Positions 5,010-30,164 of a stretch of 44,976 nt of DNA are shown piece by piece. The notes below the pieces were generated by a model that saw only the letters and a program-made list of their open reading frames with translations, had not been told where the DNA came from and searched no databases. The position numbers and the translations under genes are program-made. This stretch comes from a virus: positions 1 to 44,976 of IMG/VR virus record IMGVR_UViG_3300037196_000189; one strand, written 5' to 3'. The stretch's first letter is position 1; each line of letters opens with the position of its first letter.

Positions 5010-5621
5010 CTATATAGATTGTGCCGTATCTCGTCCAATATTCTGAAATCTATTTGGAACAACACCCGTTTGAGAACGGCCACCATCTTCAGTTCTTCTG
5101 TTTTCGTGTTTCTTTAATTTTTTTTTTCCATCTTCACCAATAAGAGGTTCAACTGCATTCTGTTCTTTGACTGAATGTTTTTTTCCATAATATGCACCTA
5201 ATGCTCTACGAATTCTTTTTTGTTTAGAATCACCGTTAAATCTTGGATCATCAGAATGAACAAAATCATCAATATAATCAGAAGAAGAAGCAGAGGCAGA
5301 AAGAGTTTCGTTTATAACTTCTTCTTTTACATTTCCAGGAGAATCTGAAGCAAATACTTTTGGCTTCGTTCTCCAATTTGGTTTACCACCGCTTAGTGTT
5401 TTTTTCTGTTTATAATAATCTGGTCCTAATTGTTTTCTTAATGCTAATGTATATCCTTTAGTTCTTTTTCCAGCATTTTTTGAATCACTTTTCATACTTT
5501 CTACACTATTATCTTTATAATTTTGTAAAGTGTCTGTTGAAAGTTCTTTTAAATTCTTAAAGATACAAGCATCTTTTCCTTTTTCATTTAAATGATTAAC
5601 AGCTATATCAATGATGTTCAT
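5010..5621 (-). CDS. Putative prohead core/internal head protein
   Basis: The 203-aa product is basic and low-complexity, with no recognisable enzyme fold. The first ~90 residues contain KGKDACIFKNLKELS and a Lys-rich stretch. Residues ~107-145 (ETLSASASSSDYIDDFVHSD, then a KRIRRALGAYYGKK segment) resemble a short module repeated in many phage head-region proteins, where Ser/Asp precede a basic helix. It overlaps the stop of the 266-aa gene by ATGA, so the two are translationally coupled. Position between portal and protease corresponds to T4 genes 67/68, so a role inside the prohead core is likely but not shown. Confidence 0.6.
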   Translation of the reverse strand: MNIIDIAVNHLNEKGKDACIFKNLKELSTDTLQNYKDNSVESMKSDSKNAGKRTKGYTLALRKQLGPDYYKQKKTLSGGKPNWRTKPKVFASDSPGNVKEEVINETLSASASSSDYIDDFVHSDDPRFNGDSKQKRIRRALGAYYGKKHSVKEQNAVEPLIGEDGKKKLKKHENRRTEDGGRSQTGVVPNRFQNIGRDTAQSI

Positions 5622-6418
5622 TTCTTTACTTCACCATATTTATAATTTTGTTTCTTTGATTTTTCATTTTTACCAGTTATAGGCTTAGAATCTGTTTGTA
5701 ATTCTGCATCTGGTTTCTTACCAGTTTCCATTCCAACAGTATAATCTGGTGGATTACATCCAACATCATGTTCGCCTGAAACAATACTTCTTTCATTAAG
5801 ACGCTTATCAAGATAAGATACCGCTATTTGATTTGCTAATGTATCTTCTTTTAATTTATCACCAAGCAATAGTTTTTTTCCTTTTTTAACTGTTGAATCA
5901 TCTTTATCTGCTCCACTTTCACCACAAGCATTACCTTCATGCATTTTTTTGAGAGTTACTGCTAAACGTGATTGCTTTCCAGTTTTACTTGAGCCATGTT
6001 CGTGTTCATGAGCAAATTCCATTGGAGACTCCTTTGCTTTTTCTGCTTTTTTTGTAAGGGCTCCTGAATGTTTTATTGCATTTGCTATCCAATGTTTTTC
6101 AATCAACTCTTCTTTTGATTGATTTTCTTGTTCATACATAGGATCGCCCATTTCATTTCTTCCATGACCTTTTAATCTTTTATTTTTAGGATCATCTAAC
6201 GAATCTTTTACACCATCTTTTGGATCTTTATTTCCTTCACGAGAACCATGAATTTCTCTTGTGTGTTTTGCTGCAAGTTTATCAGATTCAGGATCACGAG
6301 TTCCTAACTTTAAACCACCAACATCACCTGACTTTTTTTCTTTTGTCGGTGCTTTAACATCCTTAAGAAATTGTTTTGCTTTATGTGTTTTCACAAAATC
6401 TGATATTTCTTGAGCCAT
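5618..6418 (-). CDS. Putative prohead core/internal head protein
   Basis: The 266-aa product is highly charged (Lys, Glu, Asp, Gly) and probably largely disordered. Residues 107-158 contain a phage-specific module: KHWIANAIKHSGALTKKA, SPMEFAHEHEH, GKQSRLAVTLKKM. Related segments recur in head-region proteins of many phages. No signal or membrane segment is present. It overlaps the preceding small core gene by one base and the next gene by four, forming one translational unit directly after the portal gene. This is the place of T4 core genes 67 and 68. The molecular role is unknown. Confidence 0.6.
   Translation of the reverse strand: MAQEISDFVKTHKAKQFLKDVKAPTKEKKSGDVGGLKLGTRDPESDKLAAKHTREIHGSREGNKDPKDGVKDSLDDPKNKRLKGHGRNEMGDPMYEQENQSKEELIEKHWIANAIKHSGALTKKAEKAKESPMEFAHEHEHGSSKTGKQSRLAVTLKKMHEGNACGESGADKDDSTVKKGKKLLLGDKLKEDTLANQIAVSYLDKRLNERSIVSGEHDVGCNPPDYTVGMETGKKPDAELQTDSKPITGKNEKSKKQNYKYGEVKK
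5637..5644 (-). promoter_or_regulatory. Possible late promoter box inside the 266-aa gene
   Basis: TATAAATA on the minus strand, 16 nt before the ATG of the 203-aa gene and inside the coding sequence of the gene before it (codons for YKY). The predicted transcript leader would be under 12 nt. It may be a codon coincidence. Confidence 0.2.
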
Positions 6419-6668: not shown

Positions 6669-9600
6669 TTATTCTGAATTTCTCTTAGTTTGTGATACTA
6701 ACTGAATCGCTTGTTTATATTTTGATTCATCTTGCATACTACGATTAGCTTTCCCTTTTTCTTTCATTGATTTAATAAATTCAATAGCTTGTTTAAGAGG
6801 TTCTTCTAAATTTGGATGTTGTGGCTGACCTTGACCTTGTTGTGGTTGTTGAGGTTGTTGTGCATTCGTAGGCTGAGAACCACTTGATTTTCCTTGAGTT
6901 TCTTCACCTGCTTTATTTACTTCATTACTTTGTCCATCAACTTGTCCTGGAATCTGACCCATAGCATGAGCCTGCATATCTCCTAACTTCTGATTAAATA
7001 ATTGATCTCCCATTGATTCATTTTGAAGAATTTCTGGATTAATCCATCTCGGATCATTTGATGAAATTTCTTTTTGAATTTCTCTATCAAATTCCTTTAT
7101 TTCATCATCAGTTTGTTGTAATACTTCTTTTCGTATCCATTTATGAGGATAATATTTATCAGCCATTGGTTGAAATGCTGATGCAAGATTAATTCTATTC
7201 TGTGCAATTTCTGCTTTTTTAAGTTCATCAAAATAATTATCTTTAGCGTAATCAAATTTAATGTCAGCAGAAATCTGTTCCCATTCATCAATTGACATAA
7301 TACCTTTAAGAACAAGTTGTTTTTTAAGGAGTTCTGTAAACAAACATGTAAATTTAATACGAAGTCTTATAACAAATTTTTGAAATTTTAATTCATCTCG
7401 TGTAATTCCAGTCGCAGTTCCGCCCATATCTAACGCATCAGAATTAAGTCTTGAAATAGGAACATTGAGAGCATTAAGGAATTTCTTTTGAAAATAAAGA
7501 ACATCATCCATTTGACCAAGAGTTTGACCACCAGGAAGAGTAATAACCTCTGTACCTTTTCCTCCTTCACGTCTTGGAAGCCAATAATCTTCCATCATAG
7601 TCATGAATTTTCTATCGTCTTTTACTTCACCGGACTGAGCATCATAAATAAGACGATTTCTATGACGAACCATAATTTCTCTGAGATATTGTTCTGCTTT
7701 AATTTTTGGAAGATTTCCTACATCAATATACCAAATTCGTCTTTCTGGTGCTCTTGACAATCTATAAATGACAAGTGCATCTTCTAATGTTCGAAGCTGA
7801 TTAAGACATTTAATACTATTAGAACATACCATATGATTTGCAATAAAGTTATGAGAAGGATGATCTACAGTAATATCAAATACTTCTTCATCTTCTTTTC
7901 CAGAAATTTTAATAATATTTTCCCATTCTGGTAATAATCTTTTAGAAAGGTAAATATTATATCCAATGAATGACTTTCCAAAAGAATTTATTTTATGTTT
8001 AGTGACTTTTCCAGAAGAATAGCCTAATAATGTCCAAAGTTCTTTAATATCATAAATTAATTCTTCATTGGATAAATTAATTCTACAGGACAATGTTTTT
8101 TCTTCATCCATATCAGTATCATCATAACAACCATCTGCATCCATAAAACCCTGCATAAATGCATATTGTATAAAGGTCTCCGCTCTAAAAACCCAAGAAG
8201 GAATACGTTTATTTTTTGCTCCAGTAATAAAATCTAAATTTTTTAATAACTCTGCCGCTAATGTATTGCTGGTATACCAACTAGAAAATATTCTACCAGT
8301 TGAATTAATTCTTTCACAATTTCCAAAAAAGTCTCTCATTAAATTACAGTAAAAAATATTTTGACTTTTATCTATGCCTTCAGCAAAACTTACTGTATAT
8401 TTATTTACACATCCGTCACCCAAAAGAAAACCAAATAAACGAGCAAATCTTTCATCTATATATTGAGGAATGTTTAATTTATTAGAACACATCCCTTCTA
8501 ATTTTTTGTTTAAATCTAATTTCATTGGAAGTCTATTAATAATATTTTGTGCAGATGTTTCACTTAAAACACCATAACCATAAATGAACGAATAAACTTT
8601 ACTGAATTTAATATCTAATTCATTAGCAATATCTCTAATAATTTTTTTCTTATGTAAAATATTAGATTTAACCCAAACTTCAGGATTTTTAATTTTACAA
8701 ACAACATTTCTTTTTGATATTGGAAATTCTATTTCTTTACCAAATTGCTTATCATAATTATGAGCAAGTTTAACCTGATGAACTTTTGGAAATAAGTTTT
8801 GTGCTTCGATATATTCAATTTTATTAGTTTTATTATTTTTTACTAAAACTTTATGTTCATAACTACAATCAAATTTTGTATGTCTTGTTCTTATAGATAT
8901 AATTGGTTTAATACCACTAGCCCACTTATCAATAACATTAGATTTTTCAAATGAATTGTCTTCAACATTGTAAGAATAAACTTCATCTCCTTTTTCAATA
9001 TGCTCTAAATATTTCCAGCCATCAGGAGTTCGTATTCTAGTATTTTTTGGTAAACATTTATGTAGATATGAAAGAACCATTGTACCTTGATTGTCTGTTA
9101 ATCCAGACACAACATGTAGAATAGTATCTTTTGCTATCTTTAGTCCAGTAGTAGATGGTCCTACTACTTTATTTCCATAATTAAAACCTTTATCATTAAA
9201 AATATAATATTCATTTACTGTTTGGGAAACAACAGCATCTCCGGGATGATTAGAATCTGTTCTTCTTTTTGATATTTCTCTAATTTTTCTAATTTTTCTG
9301 GGATCGACATAACGTAATTCTTTTATGCCTTCTTGTGGACTGTTTTTATCTATTAAAACATGAAAATATAAACGGCCATCAATATACCAACGTCTGTAGA
9401 TATCATAGGCATGAGAGGAAAAATCTAATAATTTAAGACAATTCTGAAATTCTTCTTTGATTGCAGATTCTAATTTATCTGAAATAATCTTCACATTTTC
9501 AAGATTAATAGAAACTATTTTTTTATCTTCGATTGCAATTGATTCATTAACAATTTCATCGATTGCTGCATCACATTCTGGATGAAGAGACATTTCTCTA

Positions 9601-9785
9601 TATTTTGTAACTAATTCTGCTTCTGTACGAACTGTTCCATCAAGATCCACATATGTCCCGTAGCCAGAACCAGCAGAAATAAGAACAGCACCATCATTAG
9701 TCTCTTGTGGAGTAAATGATGGTAACTGTTCTTTGTTTGGATCTTTTCGTTTAAATTCCCAACCGAATAAACTCACAGAAGGCAT
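6669..9785 (-). CDS. 20: Portal vertex protein gp20, interrupted by an intein
   Basis: The 1038-aa precursor is portal residues 1-243 plus 657-1038 around a 413-residue intein. Exteins match T4 gp20: the N-part ends VLSYLHK and the C-part begins SIKCLNQLRTLEDALVIYRL (T4 ISYLHR / AVKPANQLKLLEDAVVIYR). This is followed by RAPERRIWYIDVGNLP, NRLIYDAQSGEVKDD, MMEDYWLPRREGGKGTEV, LPGG and VPISRLNSD. The spliced protein would be 625 aa (T4: 524), longer mainly through a Gln/Pro-rich tail (QPQQPQQGQGQPQ, ~residues 960-990). Portal forms the dodecameric DNA channel, starts prohead assembly and docks the terminase. The start overlaps the preceding endonuclease stop (TAATG); AGGAG lies upstream. A functional portal requires splicing. 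Confidence 0.96.
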   Translation of the reverse strand: MPSVSLFGWEFKRKDPNKEQLPSFTPQETNDGAVLISAGSGYGTYVDLDGTVRTEAELVTKYREMSLHPECDAAIDEIVNESIAIEDKKIVSINLENVKIISDKLESAIKEEFQNCLKLLDFSSHAYDIYRRWYIDGRLYFHVLIDKNSPQEGIKELRYVDPRKIRKIREISKRRTDSNHPGDAVVSQTVNEYYIFNDKGFNYGNKVVGPSTTGLKIAKDTILHVVSGLTDNQGTMVLSYLHKCLPKNTRIRTPDGWKYLEHIEKGDEVYSYNVEDNSFEKSNVIDKWASGIKPIISIRTRHTKFDCSYEHKVLVKNNKTNKIEYIEAQNLFPKVHQVKLAHNYDKQFGKEIEFPISKRNVVCKIKNPEVWVKSNILHKKKIIRDIANELDIKFSKVYSFIYGYGVLSETSAQNIINRLPMKLDLNKKLEGMCSNKLNIPQYIDERFARLFGFLLGDGCVNKYTVSFAEGIDKSQNIFYCNLMRDFFGNCERINSTGRIFSSWYTSNTLAAELLKNLDFITGAKNKRIPSWVFRAETFIQYAFMQGFMDADGCYDDTDMDEEKTLSCRINLSNEELIYDIKELWTLLGYSSGKVTKHKINSFGKSFIGYNIYLSKRLLPEWENIIKISGKEDEEVFDITVDHPSHNFIANHMVCSNSIKCLNQLRTLEDALVIYRLSRAPERRIWYIDVGNLPKIKAEQYLREIMVRHRNRLIYDAQSGEVKDDRKFMTMMEDYWLPRREGGKGTEVITLPGGQTLGQMDDVLYFQKKFLNALNVPISRLNSDALDMGGTATGITRDELKFQKFVIRLRIKFTCLFTELLKKQLVLKGIMSIDEWEQISADIKFDYAKDNYFDELKKAEIAQNRINLASAFQPMADKYYPHKWIRKEVLQQTDDEIKEFDREIQKEISSNDPRWINPEILQNESMGDQLFNQKLGDMQAHAMGQIPGQVDGQSNEVNKAGEETQGKSSGSQPTNAQQPQQPQQGQGQPQHPNLEEPLKQAIEFIKSMKEKGKANRSMQDESKYKQAIQLVSQTKRNSE
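7818..9056 (-). mobile_element. LAGLIDADG intein in the portal
   Basis: 413 residues (precursor 244-656). Block A starts with Cys1 (CLPKNTRIRTPDGWKYLEHI). Block B is FDCSYEHKV (His in the TxxH-type position). The endonuclease motifs are ARLFGFLLGDG and YAFMQGFMDADG, i.e. two LAGLIDADG helices with acidic ends. Block F is VFDITVDHPSHNFIANHM. Block G is VCSN followed by Ser+1. The penultimate residue is Cys instead of the usual His; the terminal Asn and the Ser nucleophile are intact. Exteins on either side align to uninterrupted T4 gp20, so both boundaries are fixed to the residue. It is probably an active splicing and homing element. Confidence 0.93.
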
Positions 9786-14413: not shown

Positions 14414-15556
14414 TTAATAACGTATATCATATTCTAATTCTGGAAGACGAATCCAAGAAGGATTTTCTACTTTTTGCCATCCTTGAGATACATCATCATC
14501 GCGTCCATCCATAACAAAACCGAATATTAACATATCATTTTCTATTTCATCTTCTGTTTTTTCACGAAGATTCATTAATGTATTAATATTACTATGTTCT
14601 TTAAAATAAGTTTGATCTGACATCCATGCAAAAAGAAATAAACAACTTACCAAATCATCATGTTTTCCATTTTCTGCTTCATAATTAGTTGCTTTTCTAA
14701 CAAATGTAGACAACTCATTAATAGTTTCATGATCTACAAGTATTAATTGATTTTGTTCTATGAGAAGTTTTAATAATTGACAACCAACAGTTTTTACTGT
14801 TTTTGTTGTTTTAATTCCTTTATCAAGAGTAGAACTTTTACCAAAACCACCTGTAATTCTTTTACCATTTCGTCCACCAGCTTCTGTATATAAAATATTT
14901 TCATATGCAAATTCATTAATTAAGGTATGAGATACCTGTTCACCAATATCATTAACTTCTATAAGAACAATTGCATCGTTATAAATCTTTGCGCTATGAA
15001 GAATAACAGAAGCATAATCTGCAGGAGGAAGAGTATTATTTCTAAATACACATACTTGAGTATAAGGCATACATGTTATATCTACAATTTGAAATGCAGA
15101 ATAATCTATTCCTTTTCCACGGGATACATCACAAACCATACCATATAAATGATCTTTTTCTGGTAATGCATATTGATAAAGTCCTTCTTTAATATTTAAT
15201 GGAGTTTTAAATGAAACTTCTAATTCTTTAAGTTTCCATGCAGCAATTAATGTGCTTGTACTACCAATGAACTCACAGTTATGTGATATTATTTTATTAG
15301 TATAATATAAATATTCTTCAACATCCAATAAATCATAATATGTAAATTCTTCATCATATATTGTTTTAGAATCAACTAAATCTTTTGCATACATAAATGA
15401 ATTATTATACAATATACGATGTTTTGGAGAACATATTAAATTACCACAATAGTCAGGCAATCTAGTTTGTCCAACTTTTCTTACTTTTTGGATTCCAGTA
15501 AAGTTTTTCCACCCAGATGGAGTTAAAATTTCATATTTGTTATTTAATTTATACAT
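14414..15556 (-). CDS. 17: Terminase large subunit gp17, C-terminal part with C-intein
   Basis: 380 aa. Residues 1-93 are the C-terminal half of a split intein ending ISHN. From Cys94 (CEFIGSTS) the sequence is the gp17 nuclease domain: GMVCDVSRGKGIDYSA (Asp143; T4 LDCSEGRGQDYHA), VLIEVND (Glu200; T4 VYIELN) and NGKHDDLVS (Asp300/301; T4 EGYHDDLV). These three acidic sites are the RNase H-like metal centre that cuts packaged DNA. It also has TTKTVKTVGCQLLKLLIE, matching T4 TKRTKAVGCSTLKDLIE. It is made separately from the ATPase half and must be joined by trans-splicing. Its ATG lies inside the end of the HNH endonuclease gene (8-nt overlap). Confidence 0.93.
   Translation of the reverse strand: MYKLNNKYEILTPSGWKNFTGIQKVRKVGQTRLPDYCGNLICSPKHRILYNNSFMYAKDLVDSKTIYDEEFTYYDLLDVEEYLYYTNKIISHNCEFIGSTSTLIAAWKLKELEVSFKTPLNIKEGLYQYALPEKDHLYGMVCDVSRGKGIDYSAFQIVDITCMPYTQVCVFRNNTLPPADYASVILHSAKIYNDAIVLIEVNDIGEQVSHTLINEFAYENILYTEAGGRNGKRITGGFGKSSTLDKGIKTTKTVKTVGCQLLKLLIEQNQLILVDHETINELSTFVRKATNYEAENGKHDDLVSCLFLFAWMSDQTYFKEHSNINTLMNLREKTEDEIENDMLIFGFVMDGRDDDVSQGWQKVENPSWIRLPELEYDIRY
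15278..15556 (-). other. C-terminal half of an atypically split intein
   Basis: 93 residues starting with the gene's own ATG (MYKLNNKYEILTPSGWKNF, then TGIQKV). Block B is in this half (CSPKHRILY, His46 in the TxxH-type position). Block F/G is EYLYYTNKIISHN followed by Cys+1. The intein is therefore cut between blocks A and B, not at the usual endonuclease site near the C-terminus. The layout and local sequence (ILxPxGxxNFxGIQKV ... SHN/CEF.GS) agree with the AceL-TerL type of split terminase intein as I remember it. Confidence 0.9.
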
Positions 15557-16142
15557 CTATACGAATATTTTCTTTTGTTATTAAATTATAAATATATACA
15601 GAAGAAATGTCATAAATTTTTGAAAAATGTTTAGCAAATGCTCTTTCATATGTTAACATTTTTCCATTTCTTAAAATAGTTCCAACCTTATCAACATCTT
15701 CTATATCAATAGTTCTATCTTTATAAAATTTCCAAATTTCTTTAATTATGTTTTTATCTATTTTAATAGAATGGATTTTACCTTTTCTCAACTGCGACCA
15801 TTTAAATTTTTGCTCGATTGAATGAAAATGAGTATTTCCTTTATTAATAGGCATAGTTCCTTTTTTTCTTCCACCAATTCCAGGTCTTTTTATTCCTTTT
15901 TGAATATCGCTTTTAAATTTGCTACCAAGTCCTATTTTATAACCAATTAAAGCAACTGCTCCCCAATCTTCTTGTTTCATATGTATTTGAAAATGCTCTT
16001 CAATAGAAACACATTTTAAGTTTTCTATACTATCATTTTTATTATTTCCATCTATATGATGAATTTCATAACTAATATTGTTTTCATCATATGGAACTAA
16101 TCCAAACTTTTTAATCCAAATTCTTCTTGTCTTATTACTCAT
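15549..16142 (-). CDS. HNH homing endonuclease between the split terminase halves
   Basis: 197 aa. The N-terminal HNH nuclease is at residues 25-54: YEIHHIDGNNKND (His28/His29), the IENLKCVSIEEH segment, then HFQIH (His50, His54). The rest is basic: GIKRPGIGGRKKGTMP, SQLRKGKIHSIKID, and a C-terminal helix-turn-helix-like end (AKHFSKIYDISSVYIYNLIT), probably for target binding. It sits between the N-intein gene (stop 26 nt before its ATG) and the C-intein gene (8-nt overlap). This is the place where a fused intein would carry its endonuclease domain, so it probably mobilises the split intein allele as a separate protein. Its ribosome site is hidden in a 17-bp hairpin with a late promoter box in the loop. 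Confidence 0.9.
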   Translation of the reverse strand: MSNKTRRIWIKKFGLVPYDENNISYEIHHIDGNNKNDSIENLKCVSIEEHFQIHMKQEDWGAVALIGYKIGLGSKFKSDIQKGIKRPGIGGRKKGTMPINKGNTHFHSIEQKFKWSQLRKGKIHSIKIDKNIIKEIWKFYKDRTIDIEDVDKVGTILRNGKMLTYERAFAKHFSKIYDISSVYIYNLITKENIRIDV

Positions 16143-16144
16143 AT

Positions 16145-16210
16145 TTAAATATTCCTATAAAATTACATTCATAAGTATTTATAAAATAGTGAATTTATAG
16201 GAATATTTAA
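16145..16210 (-). promoter_or_regulatory. Long hairpin sequestering the HNH ribosome binding site
   Basis: A perfect 17-bp inverted repeat (16145-16161 with 16194-16210, 32-nt loop). On the minus strand the 5' arm is inside the N-intein codons (for LNIPIN), the loop contains the stop of that gene, and the 3' arm carries TATAGGAAT, the Shine-Dalgarno of the HNH gene (ATG 16142). Read-through mRNA would hide the site. Confidence 0.78.
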
Positions 16211-18385
16211 GATTTCTCCAGTATCTTTATCTCTTAATGTTATTATTGTTGAGCCATCAACACATTCATATTCAGCTTCAAATTTTTGTATATCATGATT
16301 AATTGTTGAAAGAGTATCTTCTTTCCATCTTTCATCTCTTCCTGGTACCTGTCTCCAATTAACAGAAATTGGTGTATAGTTATTAATTCCCATTCTTGCA
16401 TTTACCCACAATGCATGAAAGTGATTTAACCCATAAGGTGTCTGGAAACCTACAGCTCCATTGTAAATAATACTATGACACCATTTATCACCTTCAATAT
16501 CCGGTAAAGTAAAATCATAGACTTTATTTTCAGAAATATCTATTTTTTTTACAGTGTCCCATTTAATATTTTTATCGACAATCTCATGTTGTATTCCTAA
16601 AGATAAAGCCTCTTTTCTTGAAATATGTTCATTAGTTTTATGTACTCCATTTTTTGGTGTTTTAAAATGTTTTCTACCAAAAGGAATGTAGTCTTTAGTA
16701 ATACCTTTGTAAGGTTTATTTTTTTTAAATTTATTTCTTTTTCTTTCTAAACCAAAACCAATTTTTTCCATATATAGTTTTTGCTGTTCATAAGCACAAA
16801 TTTCTAAAGTCCAAACATCGCTTTCTACTTTAACTTTTTTTGTCGGTTTTGTTCTTCGATAATATTTTTGAGTAAAAATACCAAGATTTAATAATAAAAT
16901 TCTTATTTGATTAATAAGTTTTTCAGAAGAAGAAGCTACAGAAATATTTCCTCTGTCACCAGATATACAACCATCACCATCAAAAAACCCTCTAAGAAAA
17001 GCACAAATCACTGTTTCAGAACATTGAAACAATCTTTTTGGAATTGTTTTATCTTTTGCTTTTTTGGAAATATCAAAGCCAAAACCTTCTAAAAAATTAA
17101 AAAAACTACGGCTACATATATTATAATGGACATTATCATATTTACAAAAACGTAATCCAAGATTGGTTAAAGATGAAGATATATCGTCTCCACAAGAAAT
17201 AACAATTCTACCACGTTTTTTATCTGCATATCCTTCCGATAAAAAAAGACCAAAAAAATATGCTAAATCAATATCAATCTTATCTGGTACTATAAAAAAA
17301 TTTTCTATTTTTTTATTAAAAATTTTCTTCTGTAGATCTTCAATATTATCGTTGTTACCCCACAAATTCATACCATACCGAAGAGCAATCCATTCATCTA
17401 CTTCAATATCTTTAGCTTTTTTAAAAGAATAAATACCATTTTTATCGCAAACCCAAAATTTATGTTTATATGAACATTCTACTTCTGTGGATTGTGTTTT
17501 TATTTTATAGGTTTCTGTTGTTCCAGAATTAACCATAAAACTACCATCATGTATTTTATCTTTTCCAAGAACTTTATAAGGAGAAACTTCATATCCAAGA
17601 TTAGGATGTTCGATTTGTGTTAAATCGATTAAATCAGATATTTGTTTTGGCCCATCAGAAGTAAAAATATATGTATCTTTCGTTACACATGATGAAAGAA
17701 TAATTTTGGAATGTTTTCCAGAAGAAATAGTAGGCATAACAGAAGCAGAGAATTCTTCCCAGTTTTCAATAAATGCTGTTTCATCAATATAAAGAAGATT
17801 AATAGCAAATCCTCTGACACTTTTTTTAGTAGTTGCAGCAGCAATTACACGAGAATTATTTTCTAATTCAAGAGAACCTTTATTCCATTCAAGAATACCT
17901 TGTTGTAACCATTTTGGAAGATATTCGTATGAAAATTGAATACGTCCTAACATTTCACGAGCAACTTTTCCATCATTGGCTAAGAGTGCTACTGTTTGTT
18001 CTGCATTAAATAAAATATACCAGAGAATATATGCACAAACCGAAATGCTTTTACCAGATTGTCTTGCAGCAAGAACAATTGTATTTCTGTTAACATGAAA
18101 AGAACGTAACATATTTTTTTGATATTCATATAACTGAAATTTTTGTAATCCATTATTAACGTTAATAATTTTTATATATCTCTCAACAAAATATATAGGA
18201 TCTTCTGAACATTTAACATATTCTTGAAGTAATTCAGGAGTCCAGTCTATATTTTGATTGGCTCTTTTTAATTTTATATCTCCAAGATAACCTTTTAATT
18301 TTTGATCAAATATAAAATCTTTGGGCTTTTCTTGTACTTGTGTCTCTTTTACTGTCAATTTATTATTATAAACCCCACTTATCAT
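16169..18385 (-). CDS. 17: Terminase large subunit gp17, N-terminal ATPase part with a full intein and an N-intein
   Basis: 738 aa. Residues 1-232 are the packaging ATPase: VLAARQSGKS (Walker A, 104-113), NLLYIDETAF (Walker B, Asp201/Glu202) and SGKHSKIILSS. Residues 233-648 are a full LAGLIDADG intein. The extein resumes TPYGLNHFHALWVN (T4 TPNGLNHFYDIWTA). Residues 649-707 end FEAEYE, and 708-738 are the N-half of a split intein ending in a stop. The catalytic nuclease domain is in the separate gene at 14414-15556. The finished terminase would be about 578 aa (T4: 610). It powers DNA entry through the portal and cuts the genome. The start is ATG at 18385, overlapping the zinc-finger gene by 20 nt. 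Confidence 0.95.
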   Translation of the reverse strand: MISGVYNNKLTVKETQVQEKPKDFIFDQKLKGYLGDIKLKRANQNIDWTPELLQEYVKCSEDPIYFVERYIKIINVNNGLQKFQLYEYQKNMLRSFHVNRNTIVLAARQSGKSISVCAYILWYILFNAEQTVALLANDGKVAREMLGRIQFSYEYLPKWLQQGILEWNKGSLELENNSRVIAAATTKKSVRGFAINLLYIDETAFIENWEEFSASVMPTISSGKHSKIILSSCVTKDTYIFTSDGPKQISDLIDLTQIEHPNLGYEVSPYKVLGKDKIHDGSFMVNSGTTETYKIKTQSTEVECSYKHKFWVCDKNGIYSFKKAKDIEVDEWIALRYGMNLWGNNDNIEDLQKKIFNKKIENFFIVPDKIDIDLAYFFGLFLSEGYADKKRGRIVISCGDDISSSLTNLGLRFCKYDNVHYNICSRSFFNFLEGFGFDISKKAKDKTIPKRLFQCSETVICAFLRGFFDGDGCISGDRGNISVASSSEKLINQIRILLLNLGIFTQKYYRRTKPTKKVKVESDVWTLEICAYEQQKLYMEKIGFGLERKRNKFKKNKPYKGITKDYIPFGRKHFKTPKNGVHKTNEHISRKEALSLGIQHEIVDKNIKWDTVKKIDISENKVYDFTLPDIEGDKWCHSIIYNGAVGFQTPYGLNHFHALWVNARMGINNYTPISVNWRQVPGRDERWKEDTLSTINHDIQKFEAEYECVDGSTIITLRDKDTGEILNIPINSLFYKYL
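16172..16264 (-). other. N-terminal half of an atypically split intein
   Basis: 31 residues beginning with Cys1 (CVDGSTIITLRDKDTGEILN), i.e. block A only, then a stop. Combined with the 93-residue C-half it gives a 124-residue mini-intein without an endonuclease domain. Typical split inteins have ~90-100 residues in this half. The extein junction FEAEYE/CEFIGS aligns with T4 gp17 AAFEGTSG. Confidence 0.9.
16176..16183 (-). promoter_or_regulatory. Candidate late promoter inside the HNH hairpin loop
   Basis: TATAAATA on the minus strand, lying in the loop of the 17-bp hairpin, 34 nt upstream of the HNH ATG. A transcript starting about 6 nt further on would contain the 3' arm and ribosome site but not the 5' arm, so the HNH gene would be translated only from this promoter. 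Confidence 0.5.
16442..17689 (-). mobile_element. LAGLIDADG intein in the terminase ATPase domain
   Basis: 416 residues (precursor 233-648). Block A has Cys1 (CVTKDTYIFTSDGPKQISDL). Block B is VECSYKHKFWV. The endonuclease helices are AYFFGLFLSEGYA and CAFLRGFFDGDGCI. Block F is VYDFTLPDIEGDKW and the end is NGAVGFQ followed by Thr+1. The last residue is Gln, not Asn, and the penultimate is Phe, not His. Boundaries are fixed by the uninterrupted T4 order SKIIITT-TPNGLNHF. Insertion splits the ATPase coupling motif (T4 TTT), a highly conserved site. Confidence 0.92.
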
Positions 18386-21278: not shown

Positions 21279-22106
21279 TTATGAAGCATAAATGATAATA
21301 TCACCTTCTCCACAAACAATTGTCTCTTGTTTTCTTGTTATTACATATAATCCTGATTGACTATAATTAATTCCTATATATCCTTCTGAAAAAGGATCTA
21401 AAATGCTGAAGTCTATAATTTTATTAGCTTCTTGTTCTAATGTTAAGGATGCATCAAGTTCATCTTTTTGCCAAACAGCAGAACCTTCTACACAAACATA
21501 TTTATGAGTTTCATCTAAAATTGGAACGCCATCTTCTGTTCTTATTGCCCAATCAACAACATTTAAATCAAATTGTGTTTGAAGAGTATCTATATCAGGA
21601 ATTCCTGTTTTTAATATTTCTGAAGAATATTCAAATAACTCACATTCCATTTTCCATACATAAAGGGCACCAAGAGCATAAAACATTTCAAACTTTTCAA
21701 CATACTTAATTTGAAAACATTTATTATTAAGGGGAAAGTATATTAAATCTCCTTCATTTGGACGTGGAATATTTATTACAGAACCGATTTCTAATGAAAA
21801 AACTGACTGAGAAATTGAAAGAACAATTCTATCTCTGATTTCTATGCCAAATTTTCCAACAAATTCACCATCTCCCTTAAATCCCATAACATTTTCAATA
21901 TATATAGGAACTAAAAATGCTTGTTCATATGAAGATGTAGTATCTTCTGTATACAAAGGGTTAAAATTATTAAGTTTTCTAGGGCAATAATACATTGCCT
22001 CACCTGCTATTGAAATAGATTCTGATATTAGACTATCTAATAGAAGTTGTTCTTGACTATTTTTATAATTATTGAAGAAAAAATTCACTTTGTTGTGTAA
22101 TTGCAT
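21279..22106 (-). CDS. 14: Neck protein gp14
   Basis: 275 aa (T4 gp14: 256). The N-terminal half carries the family blocks: QEQLLLDSLISESISIAGEA, MYYCPRKLNNF, YEQAFLVPIYIENVMGFKGD, GEFVGKFGIEIRDRIVLSIS and GDLIYFPLNNKCFQIKYVEK. The T4 homologue has the same head-completion order (YxPRxxxxF ... FxGDGxFxxKFGxxIRD). It joins the gp13 ring to seal the portal after packaging and accepts the tail. It follows an endonuclease gene inserted between gp13 and gp14 (3-nt gap), so its ribosome site (TTGGAA) lies in endonuclease codons. Confidence 0.9.
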   Translation of the reverse strand: MQLHNKVNFFFNNYKNSQEQLLLDSLISESISIAGEAMYYCPRKLNNFNPLYTEDTTSSYEQAFLVPIYIENVMGFKGDGEFVGKFGIEIRDRIVLSISQSVFSLEIGSVINIPRPNEGDLIYFPLNNKCFQIKYVEKFEMFYALGALYVWKMECELFEYSSEILKTGIPDIDTLQTQFDLNVVDWAIRTEDGVPILDETHKYVCVEGSAVWQKDELDASLTLEQEANKIIDFSILDPFSEGYIGINYSQSGLYVITRKQETIVCGEGDIIIYAS

Positions 22107-22109
22107 TTA

Positions 22110-23033
22110 TCAATTCCAATTTTCTTTTGTTGCTTTATTAATAATTGTTTTATGATCAATATTGTATTTTAATGCAATTTTACGTATTGATATTTTCCGT
22201 TCTATGAAATCACTCTTAATAGATATCCAATCTATCATTCTACATTTTTCATTATGATATCTTCCTATATTTAAGGGAGTTCCTTCAAAACCACATTTTG
22301 AACAAACTTCTTTTTTAGAACATACATTTTTGCCTAACTCAATTCCATTTTGTTTCCAAACTTCTTTAGTTTCTTCTGAAATAATCTTATTTTTAGCAGC
22401 TTGTTGAATATTTTCTAATGCTTGTCCTGTATGCTTTCGTCCTTTATTCTTTTTTCCACCTTGACGAGAATTTTTAAAAGCTTCGCCTTCCATAAAAGAT
22501 TGATCTCTTGATTCAATTCCTTTTAAATGTTTTTTACGAACTTCAGGTCTTTGCATTGCTTCTTTAGTTTTAATAGAAATTTTTTCATTTCTCTCTGGAT
22601 CTTTAGCAGAATTTTTTTCTCTTTCTCGCATTTCTTTTAATTTGTCAGGATTGTTTTTATAATGTTCCTTTACCTTTATTGATATTTTTTCTTTTATAGG
22701 TAATCTATTAATCTCATTAATATTTGTCCAATGATTAAATTTATGATTATGAATATTATAATATTTAATTTTTAATTCTTCTTTTTTGATCATAGAAAGC
22801 CATTTATATTCTTCTTCTAACAAATCTTGTTTATTAGTATAAATCCTTGATAAAATTTTTCTATTTAACTGACCATTAAATTTTAAAAAATCTTGTGGTC
22901 TTCTTTTATATGAATCTTTCATCCATTTAGAAGAACAGATATATCCATCATCTTCTGTTCCCCAATGACATCCTATATAATATCTTTTATGTTTTCTATC
23001 GTGCCAAATATATACAAATCCATATTTTTCCAA
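22110..23033 (-). CDS. GIY-YIG homing endonuclease between gp13 and gp14
   Basis: 307 aa from TTG at 23033; AGGAG lies 8 nt upstream and paralogues start at the same place. The nuclease core is at residues 4-10 (YGFVYIW) and 18-25 (YYIGCHWG). The middle is Lys/Glu-rich with NUMOD3-like units. Residues 244-264 (CSKCGFEG then HNEKC) look like a zinc finger, and 282-300 (SIRKIALKYNIDHKTIINK) is a helix-turn-helix. It is the longest of the three closely related endonucleases and the only one with this zinc-finger/HTH tail. It is a free-standing homing enzyme in the neck gene cluster. Its ribosome site is in a 10-bp hairpin. Confidence 0.92.
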   Translation of the reverse strand: MEKYGFVYIWHDRKHKRYYIGCHWGTEDDGYICSSKWMKDSYKRRPQDFLKFNGQLNRKILSRIYTNKQDLLEEEYKWLSMIKKEELKIKYYNIHNHKFNHWTNINEINRLPIKEKISIKVKEHYKNNPDKLKEMREREKNSAKDPERNEKISIKTKEAMQRPEVRKKHLKGIESRDQSFMEGEAFKNSRQGGKKNKGRKHTGQALENIQQAAKNKIISEETKEVWKQNGIELGKNVCSKKEVCSKCGFEGTPLNIGRYHNEKCRMIDWISIKSDFIERKISIRKIALKYNIDHKTIINKATKENWN

Positions 23034-28145: not shown

Positions 28146-28367
28146 TTAAAATATATCAGAAGTATTTACTTCTTTTGTTTGTTTAGCAGCTTTTTTCTGT
28201 ATTTTTTCTTGTTTTTCCAAGAGTGTCTGGTATTGAGCTAAAAGTTCTTTTTTATTATTTTCTAAAAATAATATTCTTGTTTCATTAAGAAGCTTAAGTT
28301 TTGTTAATTCAGCAACTTCTTGAAGAATTCTCTCAACATATAAATTAAAAAAATCAGTCTCAGTCAT
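28146..28367 (-). CDS. Small coiled-coil protein
   Basis: 73 aa, almost wholly helical with heptads: VERILQEVAELTKLKLLNET, RILFLENNKKELLAQY, QTLLEKQEKIQKKA. A coiled-coil oligomer is likely. It lies between two fiber genes; similar small helical ORFs occur among fiber genes in aquatic T4-like phages, where their function is unknown. Its ribosome site (AAGGAAAA) is shared with the end of an endonuclease remnant. It could be a fiber-assembly chaperone or minor structural protein. Confidence 0.6.
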   Translation of the reverse strand: MTETDFFNLYVERILQEVAELTKLKLLNETRILFLENNKKELLAQYQTLLEKQEKIQKKAAKQTKEVNTSDIF

Positions 28368-28372
28368 TTAAT

Positions 28373-28447
28373 TTATTTTCCTTTTATATAGTACCTCTTA
28401 TGTTTCCTATCTCGCCAAATATAAATGAATCCCTCTGTTTTCTCCAA
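28373..28447 (-). pseudogene. N-terminal scrap of a GIY-YIG endonuclease, out of frame with the fiber end
   Basis: In the frame one base off the fiber gene, codons from TTG at 28447 read LEKTEGFIYIWRDRKHKRYY then IKGK and stop at 28373. This matches the first 20 residues of the endonuclease at 22110-23033 (EKYGFVYIWHDRKHKRYYIG), including the TTG start and an upstream AGGAG. A decayed 5-bp version of the hairpin remains (28455-28459 with 28473-28477). The rest of the endonuclease is gone, and the scrap ends at the ribosome site of the next gene. It is a scar of a lost homing gene. Confidence 0.78.
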
Positions 28448-29850
28448 AGCATTCTCCTAACATTTATTGTACTAGGAACATTTAGTATAAATGGTTCCTT
28501 AGCGAATGTTCCTCCATCTAGCATTCCCCATGCTAATGTAGTAGACTGCCATTGAAGTACTTGTCCATCAGAACCAGCAGAGAATTTACTCCAGGTATTA
28601 GTAGAATTACCAACTAATAAATCACCTGCAGTAGTTGTACTTGCTCCAGTACCACCAGATGTCGCAGGAAGAGCTGTAGTCAATGAAAGCGTATTTGCCA
28701 CAAGAGATAGGGAAATTGTAGAATTAGCTGTAAACGCCATCGCAGAACTATTAACAACAAAAGCATTACCATCACCCCAAGGTTCTAAGAATGCTCGAAG
28801 AGTTCCTACATAAGCAGTTGCATTAATGGTAGAAGTATTAACAGCGGTATTTGTAGAAAATAATTTAAAGACTGGATTTGTATTTGTTGATAGTGATGCA
28901 ATTCTAGCAATACCAGAATAATATGTATCACCAGGTGTTGTATTTCCCGTTGTTAAATATAAACCAGCATCAACAATATCAGTGAATGTTGTATTAGTTC
29001 CTTGCAAATCAGCTAGCTGAATAAAATTATCTTTTATAACCAGAGTGGTTGTATTTAATGTTGTAAGAGTACCAGATACAGTAAGATTTCCAGTTAAGGT
29101 TAAATCACTTGCAGATAAAATACCTGTAGCATTGATACAAAGACCTGACGCATTTACTGTAAACTGAGAACTTGTAGATATCCAAGTACCTGTACTATTT
29201 GATATAATACCATTTGAACCAAGAACATTTATACCACCAGCCGTAAGAGAAATACCATTAGCAGCAGCAACCTGTAAACCACCACCATTTAAATTAAGAC
29301 CAGAATTAGCAGATGCAAGATTAACACAAACTCCAGTAGAATTAATAATCAACCCATTACCAACTAAAACAGTTAATCCACCGGAAGAAACATTAAGTCC
29401 AGGAGTAGATGCAAGATTGACTGATAATGTACCAGAAGTTGTTAAGGGATTTTGTGTACTGACAAGACCATTACCCATAGTAATAGTAGTTACAGTTCCT
29501 GTACCAGAAGGACTACTCCAATAAAGACCACCTGTAGAATTTGATGTTAGTATTTGTCCTGTTGAACCATAAGAGCCATTGGCATTAACATAAGTAACAG
29601 TAAGATTTGCTGTTATTACTTGATTGATGCCACCTGTAGAATTAGCAACAAGAGCTTGATAATTAGTTAAAGTTCCGGGTGTATATGAACCACCAATAAC
29701 AGAAACACCAGAACCATTTGGATTTCCGATATAAAGAACACCTGTATTAATACCATAACCATTTGCAGTAAAAGCAAGTTGACCATTCGCTAAACTAGTA
29801 ACAGTACTATTTGAAACACTTCTTTTAATTTGCATTACTGTATTTGACAT
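28384..29850 (-). CDS. Tail fiber protein with a C-terminus extended into an endonuclease scar
   Basis: 488 aa. The N-terminus (MQIKRSVSNSTVTSLANGQL, AFTANG, VLYIG) is the common attachment start of aquatic T4-like fibers. The middle has many short beta repeats (NSTG, GGL, GNGI), and ~255-290 (LTLTGNLTVSGTLTTLNTTT, IKDNFIQLAD) is a recurrent fiber segment. The last ~25 residues (RRMLWRKQRDSFIFGEIGNI then RGTI) are basic and unlike a fiber. They are the leader and first codons of a GIY-YIG endonuclease read one base out of frame. So the original fiber stop was probably lost when the endonuclease was deleted. It is otherwise a normal structural gene. Confidence 0.8.
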   Translation of the reverse strand: MSNTVMQIKRSVSNSTVTSLANGQLAFTANGYGINTGVLYIGNPNGSGVSVIGGSYTPGTLTNYQALVANSTGGINQVITANLTVTYVNANGSYGSTGQILTSNSTGGLYWSSPSGTGTVTTITMGNGLVSTQNPLTTSGTLSVNLASTPGLNVSSGGLTVLVGNGLIINSTGVCVNLASANSGLNLNGGGLQVAAANGISLTAGGINVLGSNGIISNSTGTWISTSSQFTVNASGLCINATGILSASDLTLTGNLTVSGTLTTLNTTTLVIKDNFIQLADLQGTNTTFTDIVDAGLYLTTGNTTPGDTYYSGIARIASLSTNTNPVFKLFSTNTAVNTSTINATAYVGTLRAFLEPWGDGNAFVVNSSAMAFTANSTISLSLVANTLSLTTALPATSGGTGASTTTAGDLLVGNSTNTWSKFSAGSDGQVLQWQSTTLAWGMLDGGTFAKEPFILNVPSTINVRRMLWRKQRDSFIFGEIGNIRGTI

Positions 29851-29900: not shown

Positions 29901-30164
29901 TTAAAATTGGCCACCATCTATAGATGGAATTGGTTCTAAAATAAATTGATTATTTTTTTGATTATAAATAAGAGTCGCCCCATCAACTCCATTAAAAAAA
30001 TCAATATCTGTCATTTGTGTTAAAGTTGTTGGTGGAATAGGTTCTATGGGAGAAAGAATCGAATTATTTTTTAACACAATTGGAATACTTGTTGTTACAA
30101 TTCCAGAAATAGCATTAGTTGATAACTGTATTGATTTTTTCTGCGCAACAATTACGTTAACCAT
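29901..30164 (-). CDS. Small fiber/virion protein
   Basis: 87 aa. The C-terminal half (FFNGVDGATLIYNQKNNQF, IDGGQF at the end) has the pattern D..dGatLvYn....f...dgG.f that recurs as a module in aquatic T4-like fiber proteins. The N-terminal half is a plain beta segment. It is 17 nt from the 115-aa gene and probably part of the same fiber network. Function beyond that is not visible. Confidence 0.6.
   Translation of the reverse strand: MVNVIVAQKKSIQLSTNAISGIVTTSIPIVLKNNSILSPIEPIPPTTLTQMTDIDFFNGVDGATLIYNQKNNQFILEPIPSIDGGQF

Follow-up and report, generated by a model that had tools for sequence, protein, structure and literature searches.

Homing endonuclease genes that lie between other genes are generally regarded as having no effect on their neighbors. 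The closest parallels to the locus described here are the free-standing seg and mob endonucleases of T4-like phages (e.g., segB and Aeh1 mobE), which are intergenic genes of GIY-YIG or HNH type equipped with a late promoter and a hairpin hiding the ribosome-binding site (PMC2988022, PMC3014915). Under the control known from I-TevI, segB and mobE, the ribosome-binding site is hidden in early read-through transcripts and freed in late ones (PMC2988022, PMC3014915). Such genes pass through a homing cycle in which they invade a site, degenerate and are lost (reviewed in PMC2988022). A remnant of a homing gene next to an altered coding sequence is known from T4 gene 60, whose coding gap is accompanied by a mobA remnant (PMC3014915).

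We analyzed IMG/VR record IMGVR_UViG_3300037196_000189, a stretch of 44,976 bases (hereinafter the window) from a T4-like phage, as judged from its T4-type portal, a major capsid protein matching those of T4-like phages, and its Hc2/neck genes; all the genes discussed lie on its minus strand. Unlike segB and mobE, the element in question survives only as its 5′ end, which is predicted to have become coding sequence of a putative virion gene. As in I-TevI, a promoter box immediately precedes a hairpin that covers the Shine-Dalgarno sequence, but the element was free-standing rather than intron-borne and has decayed. Empty, occupied and degenerate alleles of a single site are found, as in the homing cycle; in the window, however, the element was lost imprecisely, and the adjacent gene acquired a predicted C-terminal tail. 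In contrast to T4 gene 60, the coding change involves displacement of a stop codon and no bypassing. A literature search with limited coverage of subscription journals found no description of a homing leader serving as the C-terminus of a virion protein. We consider the scar a well-supported molecular fossil of homing, and its effect on a structural protein plausible.

A homing endonuclease scar at the end of the fiber gene

Across the 63 distinct endonuclease starts collected for a survey of leaders, a promoter box (CTAAATA or (T)ATAAATA) is present about 25-48 nt upstream in 53, and the Shine-Dalgarno sequence is sequestered in a hairpin stem in 49. The late promoter box and the stem hiding the Shine-Dalgarno sequence constitute the leader pattern of the family, and both recur in degraded form in the scar. 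In other copies, the element starts straight after the stop of the upstream gene. The proteins conserve YGF(V/I)YxW ... (Y/F)Y(I/L/V)G, i.e., the GIY...YIG catalytic motif, and are recovered by curated profiles for PF01541 (weakly, E=0.018 in 2 of 12 members), NUMOD3 (2e-6), TIGR01453 (2.6e-5) and phrog_314 (1.9e-6). An AlphaFold2 (AF2) model has the b-b-a-b-a order in residues 1-93, and a Foldseek search with it returned no match. The family probably comprises divergent GIY-YIG-type free-standing homing endonucleases.

On the minus strand, the junction reads GGAACATTC-GC-TAA-GGAACCATTTATA-CTAAATG-TTCCTAGTACAATAAATGTT-AGGAG-AATGCT-TTG..., with the stretch around the GC dinucleotide assembled in the window as GGAACATTCGCTAAGG. 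It retains the 5′ end of an endonuclease gene (28373-28507), namely a decayed promoter box, a weakened hairpin, AGGAG, TTG and about 21 codons (Table 1). The TTG frame encodes LEKTEGFIYIWRDRKHKRYYIKGK and then a stop, keeping GFIYIW...RYYI of the GIY-YIG motif, while the fiber frame past DGGTF encodes AKEPFILNVPSTINVRRMLWRKQRDSFIFGEIGNIRGTI up to its own stop, a predicted tail that includes the peptides EPFILNVPSTINVR and DSFIFGEIGNIR.

Table 1. Features of the fiber junction and the related endonuclease in the window
Feature	Position	Strand	Remarks
Fiber-like gene	28384..29850	-	488 codons; ORF; orthologs in 98 loci, 60 distinct ends
Ancestral fiber body end, DGGTF	28504-28518	-	Orthologous fibers end at the same motif
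Displaced ancestral stop, TAA (putative)	28499..28501	-	Out of frame after 2 extra nt, GC (28502-28503); from alignment
39-codon extension, AKEPFILNVPSTINVRRMLWRKQRDSFIFGEIGNIRGTI	28387..28503	-	Homing-element DNA; in no relative; inside leader-profile match 28386-28507
Late-promoter-like box, CTAAATG, decayed	28479..28485	-	Intact copies have CTAAATA/TATAAATA
Weak hairpin, TTCCTA...TAGGAG	28454..28478	-	Over Shine-Dalgarno AGGAG (28454-28458); MFE -5.1 kcal/mol
Truncated endonuclease ORF	28373..28447	-	TTG start; LEKTEGFIYIWRDRKHKRYYIKGK, then stop; blastn, tblastn, profile
Small conserved gene, MTETDFFNLYVERILQ...	28148..28369	-	Directly 3′ of fiber in relatives; right flank of homing site
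Resident intact endonuclease, relative of the lost one	22110..23033	-	TTG start, CTAAATA box, 13-bp hairpin; phrog_314 homing endonuclease 1.9e-6

The earlier note on this DNA had recognized here, by eye, an out-of-frame homing endonuclease leader with a TTG start, AGGAG and a decayed hairpin, and all these elements were recovered. A nucleotide profile built from the endonuclease leaders of other contigs, with the window copies left out, matches 28386-28507 at 45.1 bits (E=2.8e-13), against 9.8 bits for the best of 100 shuffled windows. These scores, along with the endonucleases occupying the same site in relatives (see below), rule out chance similarity, for which the AT-richness of the tail could otherwise have been invoked. 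The hairpin is weaker in the scar than in the three resident copies (about -12 to -20 kcal/mol). As the note had also claimed, the scar resembles the resident endonuclease at 22110-23033: within the window, blastn aligns 111 nt of it with the leader and start of that gene (73% identity, E=1e-9), and tblastn matches 28385-28435 to the endonuclease N-terminus (82% identity, E=1.5e-6). That copy need not be the parent, since other members of the family match almost as well.

The profile match spans exactly the stretch past DGGTF and starts at the position of the ancestral stop, which implies that all 39 residues of the predicted tail derive from the element. The note was thus right that the predicted fiber C-terminus is element-derived, though it had counted only the odd last ~25 residues as foreign. 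The fiber family has no match in Pfam, PHROGs or cultured phages; we take its product to be a putative virion protein because of the position of the gene and because a gene near it matches phrog_3304 (tail fiber assembly). An AF2 model of the fiber C-terminus gives the tail no structure, with pLDDT below about 60; the model is poor throughout, and we give it no evidential weight. A DGGxF-like motif is kept in nearly all distinct fiber ends of relatives. Separately, the product of window positions 29901-30164 and the neighboring fiber (28504-28518), which are apparently unrelated, both end in such a motif at their (ancestral) stops.

The same junction in related phages

Single-sequence scans of viral contigs with the fiber and with the small gene retrieved nothing, but profile scans with the fiber C-terminus (query A1) and the downstream small gene (query A4) brought in relatives with 98 resolved fiber loci. 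Fifty-eight of the 60 distinct ends stop exactly at DGG(T/S)(F/Y), one of them in the form SGGTF, and the other two add a single Ser; the 39-residue addition is confined to the window. The basic tail is thus absent from all 60, with or without an endonuclease; the note had named relatives that carry it yet lack the endonuclease as the counterevidence to look for, and none turned up.

The site is empty in most relatives, with the small gene within tens of bases of the fiber, whereas an intact endonuclease fills the gap in L092, L118, L173 and L181 (the L181 contig starts near the endonuclease, with the fiber end outside it). These occupants bear out the proposal that a homing gene once stood directly after the window's fiber and lost all but its 5′ end. 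The downstream flank (the small gene) of occupied L118 is 96-97% identical to that of empty L121 and L094, and comparison with these two shows that the insert lies after the fiber TAA and before the small-gene ATG; this junction thus bears the mark of a homing site, an insert that is present in one allele and missing from the same point in its close relatives. In L009, a 156-nt gap (5615-5770) contains the final 38 codons of an endonuclease gene, still as an ATG-started ORF, whose 38 residues match the C-terminus of the L092 enzyme (blastp E=5e-11). From its sequence, L009 is a second, independent scar, 3′ and reciprocal to the 5′ scar of the window. At one and the same junction, then, alleles are empty, occupied or broken, the last in two independent ways; the broken allele of the window alters the predicted end of a putative structural protein. 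The junction opens the loss phase of the homing cycle, with its cost or benefit for the neighboring gene, to direct testing.

Virion genes running into endonucleases elsewhere

The fiber frame of the window closes at TATATAA, and in an intact endonuclease copy with an ATA isoleucine in YYIG the same place reads TATATAG. A TAG in the fiber frame is found in 22 of 60 endonuclease starts, including, by direct reading, the copy at 22110. Such a TAG at the YYIG codons makes the fiber tail independent of the deletion. When an upstream stop is lost, the run is usually short (median 4-11 codons), and reaches at least 39 codons in 7-12 of ~50 leaders per frame.

In L005, a fiber N-terminal domain (73-381) is interrupted by an intact endonuclease (318-1010) whose start it overlaps out of frame; the fiber ORF ends ...LCIFGTIEDTEDFI, stopping at the same TATATAG. 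The L005 fiber array contains two further endonucleases. In L059, a neck-type gene, which elsewhere ends in DPFSEGxx and a stop, lacks its usual stop and runs ~30 residues out of frame into the leader and start of an intact endonuclease (about 4998). Long ORFs over endonuclease starts in L019, L026, L028 and L033 were set aside as spurious because the true upstream gene stops normally.

It is tempting to see the decay of homing elements, or run-in to them, as a recurrent source of new C-terminal tails on T4-like virion proteins, with the window fiber, the L059 neck protein and the L005 fiber as three independent cases, and some of the tails made, kept and perhaps also conferring immunity to re-invasion; we regard this combined reading as doubtful. 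If true, tails would be gained repeatedly because the element inserts flush with the upstream stop and has a leader that can be read through in a usable frame.

The neck gene of the window itself (head closure Hc2; 21279-22106) continues 31 residues (GINYSQSGLYVITRKQETIVCGEGDIIIYAS) past the nearly invariant DPFSEGxx terminus, and the near-identical contig L011 has the same extension. This stretch is unlike endonuclease leader DNA, yet the end of the gene is a frequent homing site in relatives.

Proposed history and alternative explanations

Comparison of the sequences gives the ancestral fiber end, the site, its intact occupants, the scar and the reading frame, and the tail is presumed to be translated. 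Very probably, the element inserted here and was later deleted in large part, and a 2-nt displacement of the stop produced the predicted 39-residue tail. A free-standing GIY-YIG-type endonuclease gene with its own late-promoter and hairpin leader would have inserted between the fiber stop and the small-gene ATG, and the endonuclease past about codon 21 would later have been deleted, presumably in a single event. A gain of 2 nt just ahead of the old fiber stop, before or after the deletion, would have thrown the TAA out of frame, such that the fiber frame passed through the leader and the first endonuclease codons to end 39 residues on. As a likely side effect, the target site would remain split by the scar, which may protect the phage from re-invasion.

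Relatives have GGA-ACn-TTy-TAA (or TAG) where the window has GGA-ACA-TTC-GC-TAA. The simplest reading is that the old fiber TAA survives 2 nt out of frame, because relatives stop there and because the element elsewhere starts directly after the upstream stop. The two extra bases might, as a speculation, be donor-site flank carried in with the element, since the gene ahead of many copies ends in ATGATCGGCTGA/TAG. The earlier note had blamed the read-through on the deletion; this does not hold, as the displacement lies upstream of the leader and the frame closes alike over the intact endonuclease of L005. A different order of the same events, in which the fiber lost its stop ahead of a still complete endonuclease and was already extended when the deletion occurred, has a chance we put a little short of even: the L005 fiber and the L059 neck gene do run into live endonucleases, and over a third of endonuclease starts offer the TAG noted above, but no intermediate from the lineage of the window turned up.

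The scar could also be real and the fiber still end at DGGTF, with the GC due to misassembly or to a rare variant strain and no extended protein in the population. An exact-pattern scan found no second copy of the junction, leaving the scar allele on one metagenomic contig, and the TAA sits only 2 nt out of frame just where relatives stop; on the other hand, assembly errors seldom take the form of a 2-nt insertion outside a homopolymer, and the frame stays open for 39 codons afterwards, though such leaders allow that run length. We judge this improbable; were the GC an error, its correction would restore the normal fiber end and leave the scar in place. Still less credible, to the point of being very unlikely, is that the scar is a retained functional module, such as a 24-residue peptide or a regulatory leader, rather than decay: TTG and AGGAG persist at good spacing, but the promoter box and hairpin are both degraded, the ORF is cut inside the catalytic domain just past YYI, and no relative has the short form. 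Insertion, later deletion and displacement of the stop remain our preferred account.

Other features of the window

The T4-type portal gene (6669-9785) has a LAGLIDADG intein inside it. The large terminase gene (14414-18385) is broken up: its N-terminal half holds a full LAGLIDADG intein (PF14890, PF14528), followed by what looks like a split intein (ending CVDGSTIITL...FYKYL and a stop, and restarting MYKLNNKYEILTPSGW...IISHN), between whose halves sits an HNH gene (15549-16142). At its C-terminus, the resident endonuclease (22110-23033) has 43 residues that match the terminase small-subunit profile phrog_1206 (E=7.8e-5), which probably reflects a shared helix-turn-helix.
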